DNA of 50,084 nucleotides, taken from Phycisphaeraceae bacterium. Lineage in GTDB: Bacteria; Planctomycetota; Phycisphaerae; Phycisphaerales; UBA1924. Every line of letters starts with the position of its first letter. Positions within the stretch are counted from its first letter, which is position 1. This document shows, piece by piece, positions 22,728 to 31,917 of the stretch. Below the pieces are notes generated by a model that had not been told where the DNA came from, did no database searches, and was given only the letters and a program-made list of their open reading frames with translations. The position numbers were made by a program, and so were the translations under genes. The stretch is from assembly GCA_021297895.1 (NCBI GenBank), contig JAJTHN010000058.1, forward strand, positions 1 to 50,084, read 5' to 3'.

Positions 22728-23495
22728 TCAGTTGCGGGCCGGAATCGTCAGCACCGTTCCGGGCTTGAGCCGAGCCGGGTCGCGGATGGTGTCGCGGTTG
22801 GCCTCGAAAATGCGCTCCCACAAGGCGGAACGGCCGTAGAGCCGCTGCGAGATCGTCGAGAGCGTGTCGCCATCTCGAACAGTGTAGGTCTGGGCACCGG
22901 CGGGCGGGGAGTCGTTCGCCGCCTCGGCGCGTTCGGATCCCGCATCGGGACCGGCGATGGGCCTCTGGACCGTGACCACCTTGCCCTCGATGTTCTTCGG
23001 GTCCTCGGGAATCTTCAGGACCGTTCGACCGGCGATCAGGCGAGCAGGATTCGCCAGCGGATTGGCCTCAAGGATCGAGTCCGCCGTCAGCCCGGGCACA
23101 CGCGAACGCAGCCGGCGGGCGATGACCTGAACACTCACATCGCCCTGCTGCACGGTGTAGTTGAAGAAGCGCGGCGGGATCACGACGCGGACGGGCTCGG
23201 TGCGGGCGGGGGTCTGCGCGGGGCGCTCGCCCGATGCCGAAGCGTCGGGACGCGTGGGCTGAGGGGTCAGCGGCTGCGTCGGCGGCTGAGCCGCCCGGAC
23301 CGGCTGCGAGGGGACGACATCTTCAGCGAGGCGCGGGCGATCGCCAAAGGTGATCGGCGCAGCCAGCGGTGTGCCCGGTCCGGCCGTTCGACCGACGCCA
23401 CCCGCCTGACCAAGGGGCCACAGCCAGAACGTCACACCCCACGCGGCGAGCGCGAGCGCGAAAAGCCCGACGACCTTGCTGGGGTTTCTGGTCAC
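22728..23495 (-). CDS. Membrane-anchored protein with two LysM domains
   Basis: 255 residues. An N-terminal signal anchor ([19 protein letters not shown]) is followed by a Pro/Thr/Ala-rich spacer of about 80 residues. The first LysM-like unit runs [19 protein letters not shown] to VLKIPED, and a clear second LysM ([20 protein letters not shown] to VLTIPARN) ends the protein. LysM binds N-acetylglucosamine-containing glycans, usually peptidoglycan, so a periplasmic, wall-associated role is inferred. The GTG at 23495 has AGGAG six bases upstream and gives a typical signal anchor. The longer frame from 23561 lacks this. It is divergent from the M50 protease. Confidence 0.82.
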
Positions 23496-23833
23496 ACGAT
23501 TCTCCTGCGCACGGCCGCCGGCGGCGCGATCACTTTCGCGTCGATAGTTCGCGTATCGCATAGAAGTCTATCGCCTCAGCGCGAAGCACGCTGCACCGCA
23601 AAGGGCGGACGCGGGTATGCCCAAGACGCGATGAGGCGTTACAGATGGACAAGCGCAGCAGTTGCGCGACAGAGCCTTGCGCAGGGCTGCTTGGAGGGTC
23701 AACCACGCGAATCCCCCGCGGAGTGATCGAACGCCGGGGCGAATCTCGCCGAAGCTAGAGTTCGGATGCAGATTGCCTCGACGCGACCGCCGCGCCGCCA
23801 ATGCGCATGAATCGACGAACGCGAAGCCCGCCC
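23496..23833. other. Intergenic region between divergent LysM and M50 genes
   Basis: 338 bp. No convincing gene. A short dyad ATAGA-AG-TCTAT lies around 23560-23571, near the LysM start. Otherwise I see no terminator or clear promoter boxes. If translation of the M50 gene starts at the ATG at 23801, the region is 33 bp shorter. Confidence 0.4.
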
Positions 23834-24865
23834 ATGCCGTCAAACTTCAGTTTTGCGAACAATCCGTTGTCGTGGGCACTCCCGCTGGGCCGCGTGGCGG
23901 GGATCACCGTGCGCGTGCACGTCATTTACCTGATCTGGATCGCGATCGAGCTGGCAACATCGGGCGCGGGGGGGGCGGGCTGGACGGGGTTTCAGAACAA
24001 GGCGATCGCGCTGTCGGCACTGTTCGTGCTCGTGCTGCTGCACGAATTCGGGCACTGCTTTGCCTGTCGTCGCGTCGGGGGTGAGGCGGACGACATCTTG
24101 ATGTGGCCCCTCGGCGGACTGGCCTCGTGCAGGCCGCCGCACAACTGGCGCGCGAGTCTGATCACGACGCTGGGCGGGCCGGGCGTGAACGCGGTGCTGG
24201 CACCGCTCTTTGGCGCGGCGGTGATCCTGCTGGGCGTTCCCGCGACGACGCTGCTGTTCAACCCGTTTCTGCCGGGTGCCGCGGCGAACGTGGCGTTTAT
24301 CGAGGGCGGGTGGGCCGGGTACACGCTCTGGTGGATTTACTGCACGAACTTGTACCTCTTTGCCTTCAACATGTTCCTGCCCATGTTCCCGATGGACGCC
24401 GGGCGTGTGCTGCAGGAGGTGCTCTGGTCACGGCTGGGGTACAAGCGGTCGATGGAAATCGCTACAACCGTGGGTCTGCTCTTTGCGATCGCGGTCGGCG
24501 TCTGGGGCCTGGTCTCCGGCGCGGGCGTGCTGGTCGGCATCGCGCTGTTCGCGGGCATCACCTGCTGGCAGGAGAAGCAGCGGCTGGCCTGGACCACCGC
24601 CGCGAATCCATGGACCGGCAACACGGACGAGGAAGAGCCGTGGCGTCGCTCACTGAAACTCGACGACGGCGATGATGATCTGCCGCAGCGCGGCCCGAGC
24701 AAGAAGGAACTGCGGCGTCGGCTGGAGGAGCAAGCGAGCGCCAAGGCCCACGCGGAAGAGTTGGACAGGATCCTCCAGAAGATCTCCCGCGACGGCATGG
24801 GCAGCCTGACACGTGCCGAGCGGAAGTTCCTCGAGGCCGACACGACACGCCGGCGCGTGCAGTGA
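23834..24865 (+). CDS. M50 (site-2-like) membrane zinc metalloprotease with DUF6576-like tail
   Basis: 343 residues. It begins PLGRVAGITVRVH, typical of the short site-2 protease subfamily. The HEFGH zinc motif is at 70-74 and the distal ligand is Asp188 in MFPMDAGR. About six transmembrane segments. It would cleave membrane-embedded substrates. The cytosolic C-terminus ends in a helix block ELDRILQKISRDG then SLTRAERKFLEADTTRRR (309-341). That block is almost repeated at the end of the adjacent rhomboid. The start at 23834 suits the family; an in-frame ATG at 23801 would add 11 residues. The rhomboid gene begins 63 bp downstream on the same strand, so the two proteases are probably co-expressed. 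Confidence 0.88.
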   Translation: MPSNFSFANNPLSWALPLGRVAGITVRVHVIYLIWIAIELATSGAGGAGWTGFQNKAIALSALFVLVLLHEFGHCFACRRVGGEADDILMWPLGGLASCRPPHNWRASLITTLGGPGVNAVLAPLFGAAVILLGVPATTLLFNPFLPGAAANVAFIEGGWAGYTLWWIYCTNLYLFAFNMFLPMFPMDAGRVLQEVLWSRLGYKRSMEIATTVGLLFAIAVGVWGLVSGAGVLVGIALFAGITCWQEKQRLAWTTAANPWTGNTDEEEPWRRSLKLDDGDDDLPQRGPSKKELRRRLEEQASAKAHAEELDRILQKISRDGMGSLTRAERKFLEADTTRRRVQ

Positions 24866-24928
24866 TCCGATCCGACGCGGCCTGATGCTGATACGCTCAT
24901 TGATCGATTCCGAACAATCGGAGTCGCC

Positions 24929-26233
24929 GTGACGAACGTCTCACGGACAACCAAGCGACCAATCCGAGTCACCTCCGACATGGGTCTTGCCGATCGACCG
25001 TACATGAAGTCCACACCCGCGAGAACCGGCTCTCTGCTGCCCGGCGCCGGCTCGCCCAGAGCGTGGTCGTTCAACACGTGGCTCATCATCGTCAATGTTG
25101 CGGTGTTCATCATCGCGGTCGTGCTGCAGGCTCGCGGTGCGGGGCTGCGGGCTGTGCCGGTGGAGGTGATATGGGTCGATGGCATCTCCGCCGCGGATCA
25201 GGCGCGGGCCGTGCCGCTCGACAATGACGCTGCGATTCCGGGAACAAACGGTTTGCGACAGCGGTCGCTCGGTGTGCCGCAGACCGATCCGTCCGGACGC
25301 GAGATCGTCACGCCGCAGGGCGTGCTGATGCGCGAGGTGGGCGTGCAGCGGTTTTTGATCATGGACTGGCTCAACGCCTGGGGGCACTTCTCCACGTCGC
25401 TGGGATTCGCGGGGATGGAGGTCTGGCGCTTTGTCACGTTCCAGTTCCTGCACGCGAGCCTGATGCACCTGGCGCTGAACATGTTCGGCCTCTGGCTCTT
25501 TGGCGGGCTGGTCGAGTCGATCCTCGGCGCCCGGCGATACGCGGCGTTCTATCTGGTCTGCGGGGTGTTCGGGGCGGTGCTGTATCTGCTGCTGAACCTG
25601 ACGGGAAACGTGCTCGTGCACGGGCTGGGCATGACCGCGTTCAAGGTTCCTTTCCTGCTCTTTGACTCCCCCACCACACCGCTGGTCGGCGCGAGCGCGG
25701 GGATCTTCGGCGTGATCGTCGCCGCCGCTTACCTCGCGCCCAACGACATCGTGTACATCCTCGCGGCGATCCCCGTACGTATCCGCACGCTGGCCATCGG
25801 GCTGTTTTTCCTGGCCATCGCCAGTCTGTATCTGGGGACATCCAACGCCGGAGGCGAGGCGGCCCACATCGGCGGAGCGGTCGCGGGCTACTTCTTCATA
25901 CGCCGGATGCACCTGCTGCGGGACTTCTTCGACGTCTTCAGCGACTCGCGCAACACCGATGATCTGCCGCCGCGTACCGCGCCGGCGGGGCGGTCGCTCG
26001 GCCAGCGACTGACCGCGCCGCTCGCGGGCGGGCCGTCGCCCGCGGAACTCGATCGGATTCTCGCGAAGATCCGCACGTCCGGGCTTGAGAGCCTCACGCC
26101 CGCCGAACGCGTGGCGTTGGCACGCGACACCGAGGCCCGACGCCGCGGCGAAGGATCGAGCACGCACAGCACCGCCCGCGGCCCGGACAAGCCGTCGACG
26201 CCGACACCGCCACCCGCGGGGCCCTCGGCATGA
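24929..26233 (+). CDS. Rhomboid-family intramembrane serine protease with DUF6576-like tail
   Basis: 434 residues. The catalytic dyad is visible: Ser256 in GASAGIFG and His313 in AAHIGGAVAGYFF. HASLMHLALNMFGLWLFG is the usual rhomboid His/Asn region. Six or so membrane helices. Between the first helix and the rest there is a longer periplasmic loop of about 90 residues. The cytosolic end has ELDRILAKIRTSG then SLTPAERVALARDTEARR (373-405), matching the tail of the M50 neighbour, followed by a Thr/Pro-rich extension. A GTG start with GGAG five bases upstream is chosen. ATGs about 20-30 codons later would still keep all helices. Its stop overlaps tgt in an ATGA. Confidence 0.9.
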   Translation: MTNVSRTTKRPIRVTSDMGLADRPYMKSTPARTGSLLPGAGSPRAWSFNTWLIIVNVAVFIIAVVLQARGAGLRAVPVEVIWVDGISAADQARAVPLDNDAAIPGTNGLRQRSLGVPQTDPSGREIVTPQGVLMREVGVQRFLIMDWLNAWGHFSTSLGFAGMEVWRFVTFQFLHASLMHLALNMFGLWLFGGLVESILGARRYAAFYLVCGVFGAVLYLLLNLTGNVLVHGLGMTAFKVPFLLFDSPTTPLVGASAGIFGVIVAAAYLAPNDIVYILAAIPVRIRTLAIGLFFLAIASLYLGTSNAGGEAAHIGGAVAGYFFIRRMHLLRDFFDVFSDSRNTDDLPPRTAPAGRSLGQRLTAPLAGGPSPAELDRILAKIRTSGLESLTPAERVALARDTEARRRGEGSSTHSTARGPDKPSTPTPPPAGPSA

Positions 26234-27498
26234 GCCATGCAGTTTCGCTCTCGATCCTCGCGCGGTCGCAGCGCTTCAACGCCCGCCTTGGCAGGGTTCG
26301 AACTCCCCATGGCGAGTTCGACACGCCGGCGTTCATGCCCGTAGGCACACGCGCGAGCGTCAAGGGTGTCCTGCCGTCGCAACTGGCCAATCTCGGCGCG
26401 CAGGTGTGCCTGGCGAACACGTACCACCTGCTTCTGCGACCGGGCTCGGAACTGGTCCAGAAGATGGGCGGGCTGCACGCGTTCATGAATTGGAACCGGC
26501 CGATCCTGACGGATTCCGGCGGGTATCAGGCCTATTCGATGGCCGATATCAACAAGGTCACCGACGACGGCGTCTCGTTCCGCTCGATCCTCGACGGCGC
26601 GATGATCCATCTCTCGCCCGAGCGCGCGATCACGGTGCAGAACGAGCTCGGCGCGGACATCATCATGGCCTTCGACGATTGCCCGCCCAGCGCGCCCGAT
26701 GCCGATGCCGATGCGCCGGCGATTGATCCGGGCTCAGCACTGGCCAACGACCCTCGACTCTCTCGTGTGCTTTCTCGCGACAAGGTCAAGGGGCAGGCCG
26801 ATCACGCCAAACGCCTGCGCGAAGCCTGCGAGCGTTCGATCCGCTGGCTCCATCGCTGCAAGGCCGCTCATGCCCGATCGCACGATCAGGCGCTCTTCGG
26901 CATCGTTCAGGGCGGCACCGATCTGCAGCAAAGGACCTGGAGCGCCGAGCACACGTGCGCGATCGACCTGCCCGGCTATGCCATCGGCGGCGTTGCGGTC
27001 GGCGAGACCTCCGACGACATCGCTCGCGTCGTGCGTCACACGGCGCCGCTGCTGCCGGATGCAAAGCCGCGCTACCTCATGGGCGTCGGCTACGAGCGCG
27101 ACCTGCTCGCCTCTGTGCTCTCCGGCGTCGACATGTTCGACTGCGTGTTGCCGACGCGCAACGGACGAAACGCCAACGCCTTCACCAGCACCGGCCAAAT
27201 CCGCCTGCGCAACGCCAAGTACGCGCTCGACCAGTCGCCCATCGAGCCGGGCTGCGACTGCATCGCCTGCGCCGGCGATCCAGCCGGCCCCGAGCCCCGC
27301 CCGTTCACCCGCGGCTACCTCCGGCACCTCTTCCTCACCGGCGAGATGCTCGGCCCGATGCTCGTCACGCTCCACAACCTGCGGCACTTCCAGCGCTTCA
27401 TGCGCGATGTTCGAGGCTCCATCGCCGGCGACGACTGGGACTCGCTGCTGACACGCTGGCCGGTCGCTCGACCCGGCTACGACGCCGTTCGCGGTTGA
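26230..27498 (+). CDS. tgt: tRNA-guanine transglycosylase (queuine tRNA-ribosyltransferase)
   Basis: 422 residues, about 45 more than E. coli Tgt. It exchanges guanine 34 of GUN-anticodon tRNAs for the queuosine precursor. LANTYHLLLRPG, the DSGGYQ block with its catalytic Asp, GIVQGGTD and the nucleophile Asp in MFDCVLPTRNGR are intact. The zinc ligands are Cys342, Cys344, Cys347 and His382. The extra length is mostly an Asp/Ala-rich insertion after FDDCPP and an extended loop near CAGDPAGPEPRP. It overlaps the rhomboid stop by ATGA. The yajC and secDF genes follow, the classic tgt-yajC-secDF order, although 233 bp separate tgt from yajC. Confidence 0.95.
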   Translation: MSHAVSLSILARSQRFNARLGRVRTPHGEFDTPAFMPVGTRASVKGVLPSQLANLGAQVCLANTYHLLLRPGSELVQKMGGLHAFMNWNRPILTDSGGYQAYSMADINKVTDDGVSFRSILDGAMIHLSPERAITVQNELGADIIMAFDDCPPSAPDADADAPAIDPGSALANDPRLSRVLSRDKVKGQADHAKRLREACERSIRWLHRCKAAHARSHDQALFGIVQGGTDLQQRTWSAEHTCAIDLPGYAIGGVAVGETSDDIARVVRHTAPLLPDAKPRYLMGVGYERDLLASVLSGVDMFDCVLPTRNGRNANAFTSTGQIRLRNAKYALDQSPIEPGCDCIACAGDPAGPEPRPFTRGYLRHLFLTGEMLGPMLVTLHNLRHFQRFMRDVRGSIAGDDWDSLLTRWPVARPGYDAVRG

Positions 27499-28250: not shown

Positions 28251-28365
28251 GCCCCTCATCCCGAGACACCTCGACCGTCCTGCGGCGTTACGCCTCATTC
28301 CCCGATTGATCTCGCCCCGACTCATCGCACCGCCCGATCGCGGCGAGCCTCAGCGAAGACGACCC

Positions 28366-31300
28366 ATGCGACACCTTCTGCGAAACACGTTCATCACCAT
28401 CTTCGTGATCCTTTGGGCGATCTACATGATCGTCCCGCCGGCGGACACCCTCCGTCGCGGCAAGGACCTCGCCGGCGGCGTGTCGCTGACGTATCAGGTC
28501 GAAATCGGCCAGGGCGATACGGGCGACACGCTCGGAACGGTCGTCGAGTTGCTCAAGCAGCGCGTCGACCCCAATGGCGTGCTGGATATCGAGATGAACC
28601 CTATCGGGGGCAACCGCATCGAAATCACGATGCCGCTGGCCTCGCCCGAACTGGTGCAGCGTCGCCAGGAGTTTGAAGCCAAGCTCGAGGCGCTCGTGGC
28701 GGGGTCGGTCAAGCCCGAGCAACTCGACGAGATGATGTCGCGCCCCGCCGCGGATCGCCAGCGCAATCTCGATTCGCTCGCGGCGGGCAACGCCGAGCGT
28801 TCCGCGCTGCTGGCCCGAGCGGCCGCGGCGTTCGATGCCAAGACGGCCGCCCAAGCCGAGTTCCGCGATCGCCGTTCCGCGCTCGAGCAGTCGTTCGAGC
28901 AGGCCACCGAGGCCCTGCGCCTGGCTCTGGTCGCAAACCAGGGTGAAGAAGCTCTCAAGCCCCTTCGCGATGCCGTGACGGCCGCGAACGACGCGATCAT
29001 CGATGCATCGCGAAAGGCCGCCCTCGCTTCGATCGACTACGAGAAGGTCCGGGGCGAGGTGGTGGCCAAGAGCATCACAGGTCCGGAAATCCGGCGAGTC
29101 CTGGAGTTGCCCACGCGGCGTCCGAAGCTCGTCGATGCCTCGGGCAAACGGATGGAAGGAAAGAGCCCGCGAGATCGCGGCATCGAGCGACTGCTCGCGG
29201 CCCATCCGGCGGTTGAGAAAGAGCTGCTCGCGCTGGTCGGCGATTGGGACCAGTACCAGAGCCAGCGTCGCACGCTCGACGATCCGGGTGACCTCAAGCG
29301 CATCCTGCGCGGCGCCGGTGTGCTGAACTTCCGCATCGGTGTGCGTCCGGGCGACCTGACGGAGGAAGCATCGCTCCGCGAACAACTGCGCCAGCGCGGC
29401 CCGCGAGCGGTGCGGTTCGATCAGGCACGCTGGTTCCGCCTGCACAAGGAGGAAGGTTGGTACGAGGACGGCGATGACGCCTCCTATCGCAACCTCCGGG
29501 AGAACACCGCGGCGCACTTTGCCCAGCGGTACCAGCTCGTCGCCGAGCAGTACGACGGTCAGATCTACATGCTGCTCTGGGATGTTCCGGGCAAGCGTCT
29601 GACGCAGAGCGAGGGATCGTGGTCGGTCGAGCGGGCGTTCCCCCAGCCGGATCAGTTGGGTCGGCCGGGCATCGGCTTCCAGATGAACGGGCCAGGCTCA
29701 GTGCTCATGGGCAACCTGACGGGCCAGAACATCCGCGGCGCGATGGCGGTGCTGCTGGATGATCAGGTCTACACCGCCCCGACGGTTCAGAGCGCGATCT
29801 CCAGCCGCGGCGAGATCACCGGCTCGTTCACGCAGGCCGAGGTGAGCAACATCGTCCGCACGCTGAACGCCGGCGCGATGGCCGCGAAGCTCTCGCCCGA
29901 GCCGATCAGCGAAACGACCATCGGTCCCGAGCTCGGCCTGGACAACCTCCAGCGCGGGCTTATCGCTACCGGCGTCGCGTTCGTCGCGGTCGCGGTGTTC
30001 ATGGTTGTGTACTACTTCTTCGGCGGGCTCATCGCCGTCGTCGCGCTCATCGCCAACGGCCTGCTCATCCTCGCGCTGATGAGCCTGAACAAGGCCGCGT
30101 TCACGCTGCCCGGCATCGCCGGCATCGTGCTGACCTTCGGCATGGCCGTGGACGCCAACGTGCTGATCTTCGAGCGACTGCGCGAAGAGATCCTCCGCGG
30201 CAACGACCTGCGAACCGCGGTTCGTCTGGCGTACTCCAAGGCCCTCAGCGCCATCATCGACGGCAACATCACCAACCTGATCGTCTGCGTCGTGCTGGCC
30301 TTCACCGGAACACAGGAGATCCGCGGCTTTGCGATCACGATGTCGATCGGTGTGGTGACGACGCTGTTTGCCCAGCTGTTCATCACCCGCGTGATCTACA
30401 CCTTCTTTGTCGAGAAGCTCCACTTCCGCAACCTGGGCAACATGCTGCCGCTGGCGTTGCCCGGCCTGCAGCGGGCCATCACGCCCAACTTCGACTGGAT
30501 GAAGTTCCGGTTCGTCGCCTATGCGTTCTCGATCATCCTGACGCTCTCCCTGCTGGGTCTGATCTCCTATCAGGGTCGCGACATGCTCGATACGGAGTTC
30601 CGAGGCGGCACGCGGATCACGCTCGACCTTCGCAACCCCGACACCAAGCAGCCTCTGACGATGACCCGCGCCGAGGTTCAGGAGAAGGTCACATCGCTTG
30701 CGGACGGTCCCCTGTCCGAACTCAAGCAGGCGACCGTGCTTGCCGTGAATCCGGAGGCGGACCAGGTCACGTCGAGCACCTTCACCATCAAGACGACGAT
30801 CACCGACACCGAGACGCTCTCGGCGGCTCTGAGCCGGGCATTCGCGGGCAAGCTCATCCAGGAGCAGTCGCTGACATTCAAGGGGTCGGACGCGACCACC
30901 GGCCGCGCTGCACCGATCCGCCCGATCCTCTCACGCACCCTGGGCGAGAGCATCGACCGTCCCGGCATCCGCACGGATGTGCGCGACTTCGAGGGCGGGC
31001 TCGCCGTCGTGCTCGAGGACATCGGGCCCACGCCGCCTCCGCTCGACCAGATCCGCGACCGGCTCCTGCGGATGCGGAGCGAGCCTCAGTTCTTGGCAAC
31101 CGCAAACACGCGTGCGTTCCGCGTCGAACTTCTCGACGGCACGCCCGAGGCGGCTCGCTCGGTGGCGATTCTGGTTGCCGATCCGATCGCGGACTACCGC
31201 ACGGATCAGCTGCGCTGGCAGGGCGAACTGCGCGATCAGGAATGGAAGATCACCCGTGAAGCTCTGCTACGCGCCAGCACGCTGCCCGGCGTCGAAAAGT

Positions 31301-31917
31301 TCGACGCATCGGTCGCACGCACGTTCACCGCTCAGGCGATCATCGCGGTGGTGATCTCGGTCCTGCTGGTCGTGATCTACGTCTGGGTGCGCTTCGCCAG
31401 TTTCCGATACTCCGCCGCGTGTATCGTTTCCACGTTGCATGACTGCATCGTCGCCGTCGGCTTTATCGCCGTGGCGGAGGTGTTCTTCGCCGCCGCGCCG
31501 ACCACGGCGTCGGCGATGGGCATCCTTCCCTTTAAGATCGACCTGAACGTCATCGCCGCGGTGCTGACGATCCTGGGCTACTCGCTCAACGACACGATCG
31601 TCATCCTCGATCGCATCCGCGAGAATCGCGGCAAGCTCCCGGGGGCCACGCGGCAAATCATCAACACCTCGATCAACCAGACCTTCAGCCGGACGCTCAT
31701 GACCGGCGGCTCGGTCATCGCCGCGACGTTCGTGCTCTACTTCCTCGGCGGAGAGGCGCTGCGGTCGTTCAGCTACTGCTTCATCGTCGGCGTGCTCACG
31801 GGGACCTACTCATCGGTCGCCATCGGCGCGCCGCTGGTGTGGAGCAGGAACCTCGACCCGACGATCAATCCGGAAACCTCATCGCCTCTTCAGAGCCGCG
31901 GGCTCTCGACGACCTGA
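28366..31917 (+). CDS. secDF: Fused protein translocase SecDF with large helical insertion
   Basis: 1183 residues. SecD half: first helix at about 8-23, GKDLAGGVSLTYQV, then the P1 domain. A highly charged helical segment at about 97-312 interrupts P1 before the conserved KRILRGAGVLNFRIG. After that comes DDQVYTAPTVQSAISSRGEI and the helix block with FGMAVDANVLIFERLREE. SecF half, from about residue 705: DTEFRGGTRITLDL, an enlarged periplasmic domain of about 250 residues, then LGYSLNDTIVILDRIREN. The conserved Asp and Arg residues used for proton coupling are present in both halves. SecDF pulls translocating proteins into the periplasm using the proton gradient. An upstream in-frame start at 28306 is possible. 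Confidence 0.95.
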   Translation: MRHLLRNTFITIFVILWAIYMIVPPADTLRRGKDLAGGVSLTYQVEIGQGDTGDTLGTVVELLKQRVDPNGVLDIEMNPIGGNRIEITMPLASPELVQRRQEFEAKLEALVAGSVKPEQLDEMMSRPAADRQRNLDSLAAGNAERSALLARAAAAFDAKTAAQAEFRDRRSALEQSFEQATEALRLALVANQGEEALKPLRDAVTAANDAIIDASRKAALASIDYEKVRGEVVAKSITGPEIRRVLELPTRRPKLVDASGKRMEGKSPRDRGIERLLAAHPAVEKELLALVGDWDQYQSQRRTLDDPGDLKRILRGAGVLNFRIGVRPGDLTEEASLREQLRQRGPRAVRFDQARWFRLHKEEGWYEDGDDASYRNLRENTAAHFAQRYQLVAEQYDGQIYMLLWDVPGKRLTQSEGSWSVERAFPQPDQLGRPGIGFQMNGPGSVLMGNLTGQNIRGAMAVLLDDQVYTAPTVQSAISSRGEITGSFTQAEVSNIVRTLNAGAMAAKLSPEPISETTIGPELGLDNLQRGLIATGVAFVAVAVFMVVYYFFGGLIAVVALIANGLLILALMSLNKAAFTLPGIAGIVLTFGMAVDANVLIFERLREEILRGNDLRTAVRLAYSKALSAIIDGNITNLIVCVVLAFTGTQEIRGFAITMSIGVVTTLFAQLFITRVIYTFFVEKLHFRNLGNMLPLALPGLQRAITPNFDWMKFRFVAYAFSIILTLSLLGLISYQGRDMLDTEFRGGTRITLDLRNPDTKQPLTMTRAEVQEKVTSLADGPLSELKQATVLAVNPEADQVTSSTFTIKTTITDTETLSAALSRAFAGKLIQEQSLTFKGSDATTGRAAPIRPILSRTLGESIDRPGIRTDVRDFEGGLAVVLEDIGPTPPPLDQIRDRLLRMRSEPQFLATANTRAFRVELLDGTPEAARSVAILVADPIADYRTDQLRWQGELRDQEWKITREALLRASTLPGVEKFDASVARTFTAQAIIAVVISVLLVVIYVWVRFASFRYSAACIVSTLHDCIVAVGFIAVAEVFFAAAPTTASAMGILPFKIDLNVIAAVLTILGYSLNDTIVILDRIRENRGKLPGATRQIINTSINQTFSRTLMTGGSVIAATFVLYFLGGEALRSFSYCFIVGVLTGTYSSVAIGAPLVWSRNLDPTINPETSSPLQSRGLSTT

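Follow-up and report, generated by a model that had tools for sequence, protein, structure and literature searches.

Introduction

Among the closest described systems, the sections of the cited papers drawn on here report that the soluble C-terminal CBS domain of the site-2 protease SpoIVFB contacts substrate (PMC9042235), that the Bacillus subtilis rhomboid YqgP acts as an adaptor for FtsH independently of its own protease activity and binds Mn/Zn with its N-terminal domain (PMC7231995), that GlpG and Rhom7 clear orphan (unassembled) membrane proteins (PMC7232013), and that RseP clears remnant signal peptides (PMC10470546). The role of bacterial rhomboids is otherwise described as largely elusive (PMC7231995). 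The subject here is a 50,084-nucleotide stretch of DNA from a Phycisphaeraceae bacterium of the phylum Planctomycetota (contig JAJTHN010000058.1, positions 1 to 50,084; hereafter the window), in which an M50 (site-2) metalloprotease and a rhomboid serine protease are neighbours and end in the same short block, DUF6576 (PF20216). Our tentative reading, which we would place just short of probable, is that DUF6576 is a portable cytosolic docking module that would bring proteins handling membrane segments to one common partner in membrane-protein biogenesis or quality control.

DUF6576 is already catalogued without a function. Our literature search returned no mention of DUF6576 or PF20216, nothing on a pair of rhomboid and site-2 protease in planctomycetes, and nothing on planctomycete Ffh with rhomboids; 'planctomyc' and 'domain of unknown function' are both absent from the available text of a 2025 rhomboid review (PMC12615303). 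No report of DUF6576 on M50 proteases or on an M domain of the signal recognition particle (SRP) was seen, and part of this host range may show in Pfam architectures.

Results

Two unrelated proteases end in one predicted helical block

The two proteases and their parts are listed here with positions in the window, strand and amino acid (aa) numbers; pLDDT is the predicted local distance difference test score.

23801..24865, + strand, M50 (site-2) intramembrane metalloprotease with MjS2P/SpoIVFB-like core, 354 aa, PF02163 51.7 bits
24041..24055, + strand, HEFGH zinc motif of the M50 protein, aa 81-85
24368..24403, + strand, second site-2 protease motif of the M50 protein, NMFLPMFPMDAG, aa 190-201
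24605..24700, + strand, low-confidence linker of the M50 protein, aa 269-300, pLDDT <50 over 269-299
24758..24856, + strand, DUF6576 tail of the M50 protein (ELDRIL...RRR), aa 320-352, predicted helix-turn-helix
24929..26233, + strand, rhomboid intramembrane serine protease, 434 aa from an assumed GTG start, PF01694 90.9 bits
25688..25702, + strand, GASAG catalytic-serine motif of the rhomboid, aa 254-258
25865..25876, + strand, HIGG catalytic-histidine motif of the rhomboid, aa 313-316 (within AAHIGG)
25964..26035, + strand, disordered linker of the rhomboid, aa 346-369, pLDDT <50 over 346-365
26045..26143, + strand, DUF6576 tail of the rhomboid, aa 373-405

The first-pass annotation of this DNA had claimed that two intramembrane proteases of unrelated fold share one tail, that the tails are matching 33-residue blocks resembling DUF6576, and that the genes lie 63 base pairs (bp) apart on one strand, and all of this was confirmed. 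The two blocks are identical at 20 of 33 positions, a figure well outside the shuffle control, in which the best 33-residue window of the M50 protein against 200 shuffled rhomboids reached at most 14 identities (mean 10.3). The spacing of 63 bp runs from the M50 stop to the GTG assumed as the rhomboid start. With a gathering cut-off of 27.3 bits for PF20216, the whole M50 protein scores 34.1 bits and the rhomboid 22.5 bits as a whole protein, 26.1 in the genome search and 28.3 as tail alone; most rhomboid orthologues in relatives score above the cut-off. At E<=1 these two tails are the only DUF6576 matches in the 3.48 Mb assembly, and none of the other protease matches in the genome, one further rhomboid (contig C20) and M50 on two further contigs (C73, C41), coincides with one, so that the tail marks one particular pair.

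The catalytic motifs of both cores are intact. The M50 protein bears both site-2 protease signatures, the HExxH zinc site (HEFGH) and a second N..P..D motif (NMFLPMFPMDAG); its closest solved structure by sequence is MjS2P (3b4r, 4.2e-19), and its fold matches by Foldseek are MjS2P again (1.4e-9) and SpoIVFB (8vjl, 1.2e-5). The rhomboid has Ser, His and HxxxN motifs (GASAG, AAHIGG, HLALNM); it scores 38.7 bits on the rhombosortase/GlyGly-CTERM model TIGR03902, below the cut-off of 84. Because the cores are GlpG-like and SpoIVFB-like, with the topology that we take such cores to have, the tails would face the cytosol.

The structure models suggest that DUF6576 is a helical hairpin held behind a flexible linker. 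AlphaFold2 on a 59-row alignment placed helices at 371-384 and 391-409 of the rhomboid, with pLDDT 93-95 for the block over 371-400, cut off from the membrane core by the stretch of low confidence at 346-365. The M50 model, built on five rows, is weaker (mean 68.9) and shows the same layout, with helices at 301-331 and 338-353 and pLDDT 81-90 over 311-350. A profile of the tail against solved structures gave matches at chance level (best E 0.53). The outwardly similar SHOCT domain (PF09851) was considered as a relative and rejected, at an hhalign probability of 4.8% against a shallow SHOCT profile of 12 rows, and neither window protein had a SHOCT match at E<=10 in a search whose HMMER filters drop most weak matches.

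Conservation was read from 100 wide loci plus the window, 101 in all, of which 40 came from 37 of 40 relatives and 60 were taken from the top-scoring matches listed for the phylum, a choice that under-represents weak DUF6576 matches. These loci hold 129 open reading frames (ORFs) with a tail: 77 rhomboids, 50 M50s, one tail separated from its M50 by a frame break (L120), and a contig-end ORF of 59 residues (L098) that was dropped from the tail set. Seven positions are nearly fixed in rhomboids (of 77) and M50s (of 50), respectively: D4 (73, 47), L7 (76, 50), K9 (76, 46), G14 (77, 50), L18 (77, 50), E22 (77, 49) and L26 (77, 50); S17 is less constant (67, 38). Profiles built from rhomboid tails only and from M50 tails only match with an hhalign probability of 99.6%, and their consensus is nearly the same.

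In 125 of 128 ORFs the C-terminus follows the tail by no more than 15 residues, as would suit a degradation signal or an amphipathic membrane-localisation tag that sets the amount or place of its hosts. The first-pass annotation had raised such a tag, and it looks improbable. The hairpin is modelled as compact at pLDDT 93-95, the near-invariant polar D, K and E are not needed by a simple degron or amphipathic helix, and the window rhomboid continues for 29 residues beyond the block.

Hosts of the tail

A less biased sample came from a degenerate DNA pattern of the tail motif, run over a collection of genome contigs from many phyla, which returned at least 119 loci. Among the matches listed, 108 tail hosts are rhomboids and four are M50s (L190, L232, L263, L277), the latter from Isosphaeraceae, Gemmataceae or Gemmata and all planctomycete by record title; the rest are five tail ORFs cut by the locus edge, an apparently frame-broken rhomboid (L166) and a locus without a tail ORF (L183). 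Tailed rhomboids among these matches come from Bacteroidota, Verrucomicrobiota, Gemmatimonadota, Chlorobi, Elusimicrobia, Actinobacteria, Chlamydiae and Leptospiraceae, where taxonomy follows record titles and a few records (e.g. Rubrivivax, L206) may be misbinned. The host counts of both samples show no random scatter of the tail over unrelated proteins, and the tail is present in orthologues of both proteases; the two outcomes that the first-pass annotation had named as fatal to its proposal were thus looked for and not seen in these samples.

The combination of M50 core and tail was followed with a full-length model (A4) of 348 positions, where a full match starts at or before position 25 and ends at or after 344. 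Every one of 119 genomes searched in the phylum gave some match at E<=0.001, and at least 43 had a full match from core to tail. The comparison set comprised 50 of 119 named genomes from the DNA-pattern scan, each of which has the tail motif. A full-length match was present in five of the six genomes with planctomycete titles (not L253) and in none of the 44 others (one of them, L197, titled only 'bacterium'). In twelve of these 44 an M50 core matches at E<=1e-20 but the match stops short of the tail, and no tail was found on any of the six such loci that were inspected. Within the samples searched, M50 with tail is seen only in planctomycetes.

On a tree of M50 cores (93 rows, 90 distinct; 21 rows tailless, of which L120 was recoded as tailed; a quick method without a mixture model), presence of the tail changes three times, against at least 15 in 200 shuffles of the labels. 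The tail is therefore a stable property of M50 lineages. Dating the transfer by a tree of the 33-residue tails themselves failed: M50 and rhomboid tails did not separate (39 changes), one of the five 'SRP' labels (L294) being an uninformative 82-residue fragment. The tails are too short for the direction and number of transfers to be read from them.

This mixing in the tail tree is what might be expected if the tail were a by-product of duplication or fusion between neighbours, functionless on the M50 protein, and in this order the host and possible donor genes do adjoin. Such an origin without function is nonetheless very improbable. Seven positions are near-invariant over 127 tails, the M50 protein keeps its tail throughout the phylum and also where the two genes are separated, and tail presence changes only three times on the 93-row core tree, against at least 15 in the shuffles.

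A further host, new here, is a stand-alone SRP M domain, the signal-sequence-binding part of Ffh, in one planctomycete family. It came to light among 16 genomes with several tails, for which 50 of the 57 listed matches were inspected. Their 51 ORF rows comprise 26 rhomboids, 19 M50s (L281 and L297 overlap, so that one is counted twice) and six others, and L318 has no tail ORF; the six are a cut copy of a counted M50 (L297), the 82-residue contig-end fragment L294, and four SRP M domains. In these four (L291, L300, L312, L314) SRP_SPB (PF02978, 58-68 bits) is followed by DUF6576 at 30.4, 29.6, 24.6 and 23.5 bits, respectively, the last two below the cut-off. L300 and L291 match the NCBIfam Ffh model over positions 326-427 of 428 only, which identifies the host as an M domain without the GTPase.

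An alignment of the four (A1), searched against 199 genomes, gave seven genes among the matches listed, accounting for all seven sampled genomes of one GTDB family; four of the seven had built the model. No full-length match stood among those listed for the other 192 genomes, at most 16 candidates being scored per genome. In four of the seven cases (loci L365-L368) an ffh-like gene is at most about 1.1 kb away. The stretch SRRRRIASGAGT of the neighbouring Ffh is altered in the tailed host, e.g. to ERRQRIADDSES, so that binding of SRP RNA may have been lost, and the tailed M domain is possibly an SRP paralogue or decoy.

Catalytically degenerate copies

In the aligned set, nine of the 50 tailed M50s lack HExxH, and eight of the 77 tailed rhomboids, all elsewhere in the phylum, lack the serine at the aligned position as judged by eye (L110, L116, L117, L119, L123, L135, L140, L144), with a ninth, L150, ambiguous. 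Seven HExxH-less tailed M50s adjoin a rhomboid with intact motifs (L063, L064, L069, L074, L081, L086, L087). From these alignments, retention of the tail appears to be independent of the catalytic residues. Loss of HExxH was also considered as a trait specific to tailed proteins and was not significant as such (11 of 72 tailed vs 0 of 20 tailless M50s, L120 dropped; Fisher p 0.11).

Persistence of the tail on degenerate rhomboids and M50s is what would be expected of adaptors, and it is conceivable that through the tail the hosts act specifically as adaptors to an AAA protease, FtsH or another, and hand on cut or misfolded membrane segments. YqgP, in the published sections cited, likewise serves FtsH without its own protease activity, but its extra domain is N-terminal and metal-binding (PMC7231995). 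We consider this distinctly unlikely, given also that FtsH is not among the annotated neighbour representatives and that an SRP M domain would be an odd client for it.

Genome context

The other genes of the locus are the following.

26230..27498, + strand, tgt, tRNA-guanine transglycosylase, operon context, PF01702 463 bits
27684..28250, + strand, yajC, Sec translocon accessory subunit, operon context, start uncertain, PF02699 56.4 bits, TIGR00739 46.2 bits (above cut-off)
28306..31917, + strand, secDF fusion, operon context, PF02355 and PF22599, TIGR01129 and TIGR00966 above cut-off
22731-23561, - strand, LysM-domain protein, divergent from the M50 operon, PF01476

The neighbourhood of M50 and rhomboid to which the first-pass annotation drew attention is conserved in the window's order, where 41 loci of 38 genomes were examined. 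In 28 of the 41 the two genes adjoin on the same strand, and in 26 of these both tails were detected; of the other two pairs, the rhomboid in G018 (L097) is cut by the contig end and that in G028 (L084) is tailless. Same-strand neighbours are tgt in 28 loci, yajC in 27 and secDF in 28, with identities confirmed by Pfam searches of the window and of representatives. The pairs in G013 and G039 are split and keep both tails (the M50 tail of G039 at 24.4 bits, below the cut-off), which rules out an artefact of adjacency or gene conversion as sole cause. In the loci inspected from other classes of the phylum, tailed M50 and tailed rhomboid are not adjacent. A gene of a NUDIX cluster lies nearby in 22 of the order's 41 loci, in place of the window's LysM gene.

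Tailed rhomboids of other phyla keep different company: an exo/endonuclease-phosphatase gene in 46 loci, MutL in 21 and a tail-specific S41 protease in 14, the rest of the ten clusters annotated being metabolic, translation or repair genes. In Bacteroidota-type loci (L164, L165, L172, L177 and others) the rhomboids stand in tandem with a tail on the downstream copy only, and MutL and the exo/endonuclease-phosphatase gene are frequent neighbours. The S41 protease (Prc/Tsp-like) follows the tailed rhomboid on the same strand in Verrucomicrobiota (L162, L188, L219, L234, L279), and its cluster, present in 14 of the 119 listed loci, is possibly a second link to envelope proteolysis.

The main rival explanation, which we regard as doubtful, is that the tail is a self- or cross-association domain, such that the rhomboid and M50 tails would pair into a hetero-oligomeric protease with no separate partner. 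The two tails of one operon are slightly more alike than tails of different pairs (0.499 vs 0.459 over 26 pairs, a value reached in 2 of 5000 permutations), a comparison that leaves relatedness and base composition uncorrected and that would fit either tail-tail association or co-evolution with a shared partner. In G032 a second rhomboid occupies the operon place usual for the M50, and both rhomboids are tailed (L088:5126-7009); the seven operons in which an M50 without HExxH lies beside a rhomboid with intact motifs would also suit paired subunits. Against pairing, loci of other phyla show a tailed rhomboid alone or beside a tailless one, at the level of loci viewed and not of whole genomes, and the SHOCT domain did not oligomerise in the part of the report available (PMC3581485), although no relationship to it was found.

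Discussion

There is reason to think that DUF6576 serves as a docking module: the tail is conserved whatever its host, its three hosts handle hydrophobic segments, the operon of the window's order includes Sec accessory genes, and degenerate copies are kept. The hairpin would fold on its own and, tethered by a flexible linker behind the host's membrane core, bring that host to a common partner at the cytosolic face, which could be FtsH or another AAA protease, or else machinery associated with Sec/SRP. Elsewhere mainly a rhomboid tail, the module would in Planctomycetota have been joined also to an M50 protease of MjS2P-like type, at the end that in SpoIVFB bears the CBS domain, and in one family also to an extra SRP M domain. 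Tailed rhomboid and tailed M50 would then act at the same place, possibly in one complex, and the M50 protein could persist as a non-catalytic subunit. The cytosolic side, the common partner, the direction of transfer and the quality-control role are steps that we infer.

The neighbours tgt, yajC and secDF, together with the SRP M domain host, point to membrane-protein biogenesis or quality control rather than to signalling. The coordinated regulated-proteolysis system that the first-pass annotation proposed finds no support here, although no search was made for substrates or anti-sigma factors. Its suggestion of a common cytosolic partner fared better, in that the host range fits one, while the partner itself remains inferred. 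The published roles of GlpG and Rhom7, of YqgP and of RseP fit docking and quality control as well.

Several observations weigh against the docking module. The structure models are of single chains, and a common partner goes beyond them. In G028 the rhomboid (L084:3513-4385) stops soon after the last of its helices, a natural deletion, and the M50 protein next to it is tailed; 28 of 294 genomes of the phylum gave no match to DUF6576 at E<=0.001. The tailed SRP M domain comes from one family only, where three of the seven tails (G155, G201, G171) are weak. The tgt-yajC-secDF genes are themselves a known conserved block, and the proteases may therefore merely share its promoter. No Sec/SRP gene was found among the ten frequent or representative neighbour clusters annotated in other phyla; the Sec neighbourhood is thus a property of the window's order, could be incidental, and the link to Sec is slightly weakened by this.

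A bolder extension of docking would make DUF6576 the docking code by which a dedicated bacterial complex for membrane-protein surveillance assembles at the Sec/SRP exit, where one partner would recruit the rhomboid, the site-2 protease (sometimes as a pseudoprotease subunit) and, in some planctomycetes, a decoy SRP M domain that holds signal sequences or membrane helices. This would amount to a primitive unit resembling endoplasmic-reticulum-associated degradation, and we think it unlikely.

The tail marks rhomboids in the sampled phyla and, in Planctomycetota, also a site-2 protease lineage and an SRP M domain, and so offers a concrete handle: its binding partner would tell where the tailed proteases work and with whom. 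A shared hook on neighbouring proteases hints at docking to one common place in membrane-protein handling, and it suggests that intramembrane proteases from two unrelated families can be combined in a single unit.

Comparison with known systems

The M50 protein resembles the SpoIVFB/MjS2P group in its HExxH and DG motifs, in its closest folds (3b4r and 8vjl) and in having an accessory module behind the membrane core; in SpoIVFB the C-terminal end is the soluble CBS domain, whereas the window M50 has the DUF6576 hairpin there. The rhomboid is like YqgP in carrying an extra extramembrane domain, and the protease-independent role of YqgP parallels the degenerate tailed rhomboids. The domain described for YqgP is N-terminal and it has no M50 partner, in contrast to the C-terminal tail and M50 neighbour here. 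GlpG and Rhom7, in orphan quality control, are likewise bacterial rhomboids, for which the available text mentions no shared tail or M50 partner (PMC7232013).

SHOCT is comparable as a short, mostly C-terminal domain of two helices around a turn that is catalogued without function; its host range is far wider, with 63 architectures in the part of the report available (PMC3581485), and it has no profile relationship to DUF6576. The closest likeness is to DUF6576 as catalogued, which the window's tails share in profile match, in place at the end of a rhomboid and in length, and from which the present set differs in that M50 proteases and a stand-alone SRP M domain carry the domain as well.

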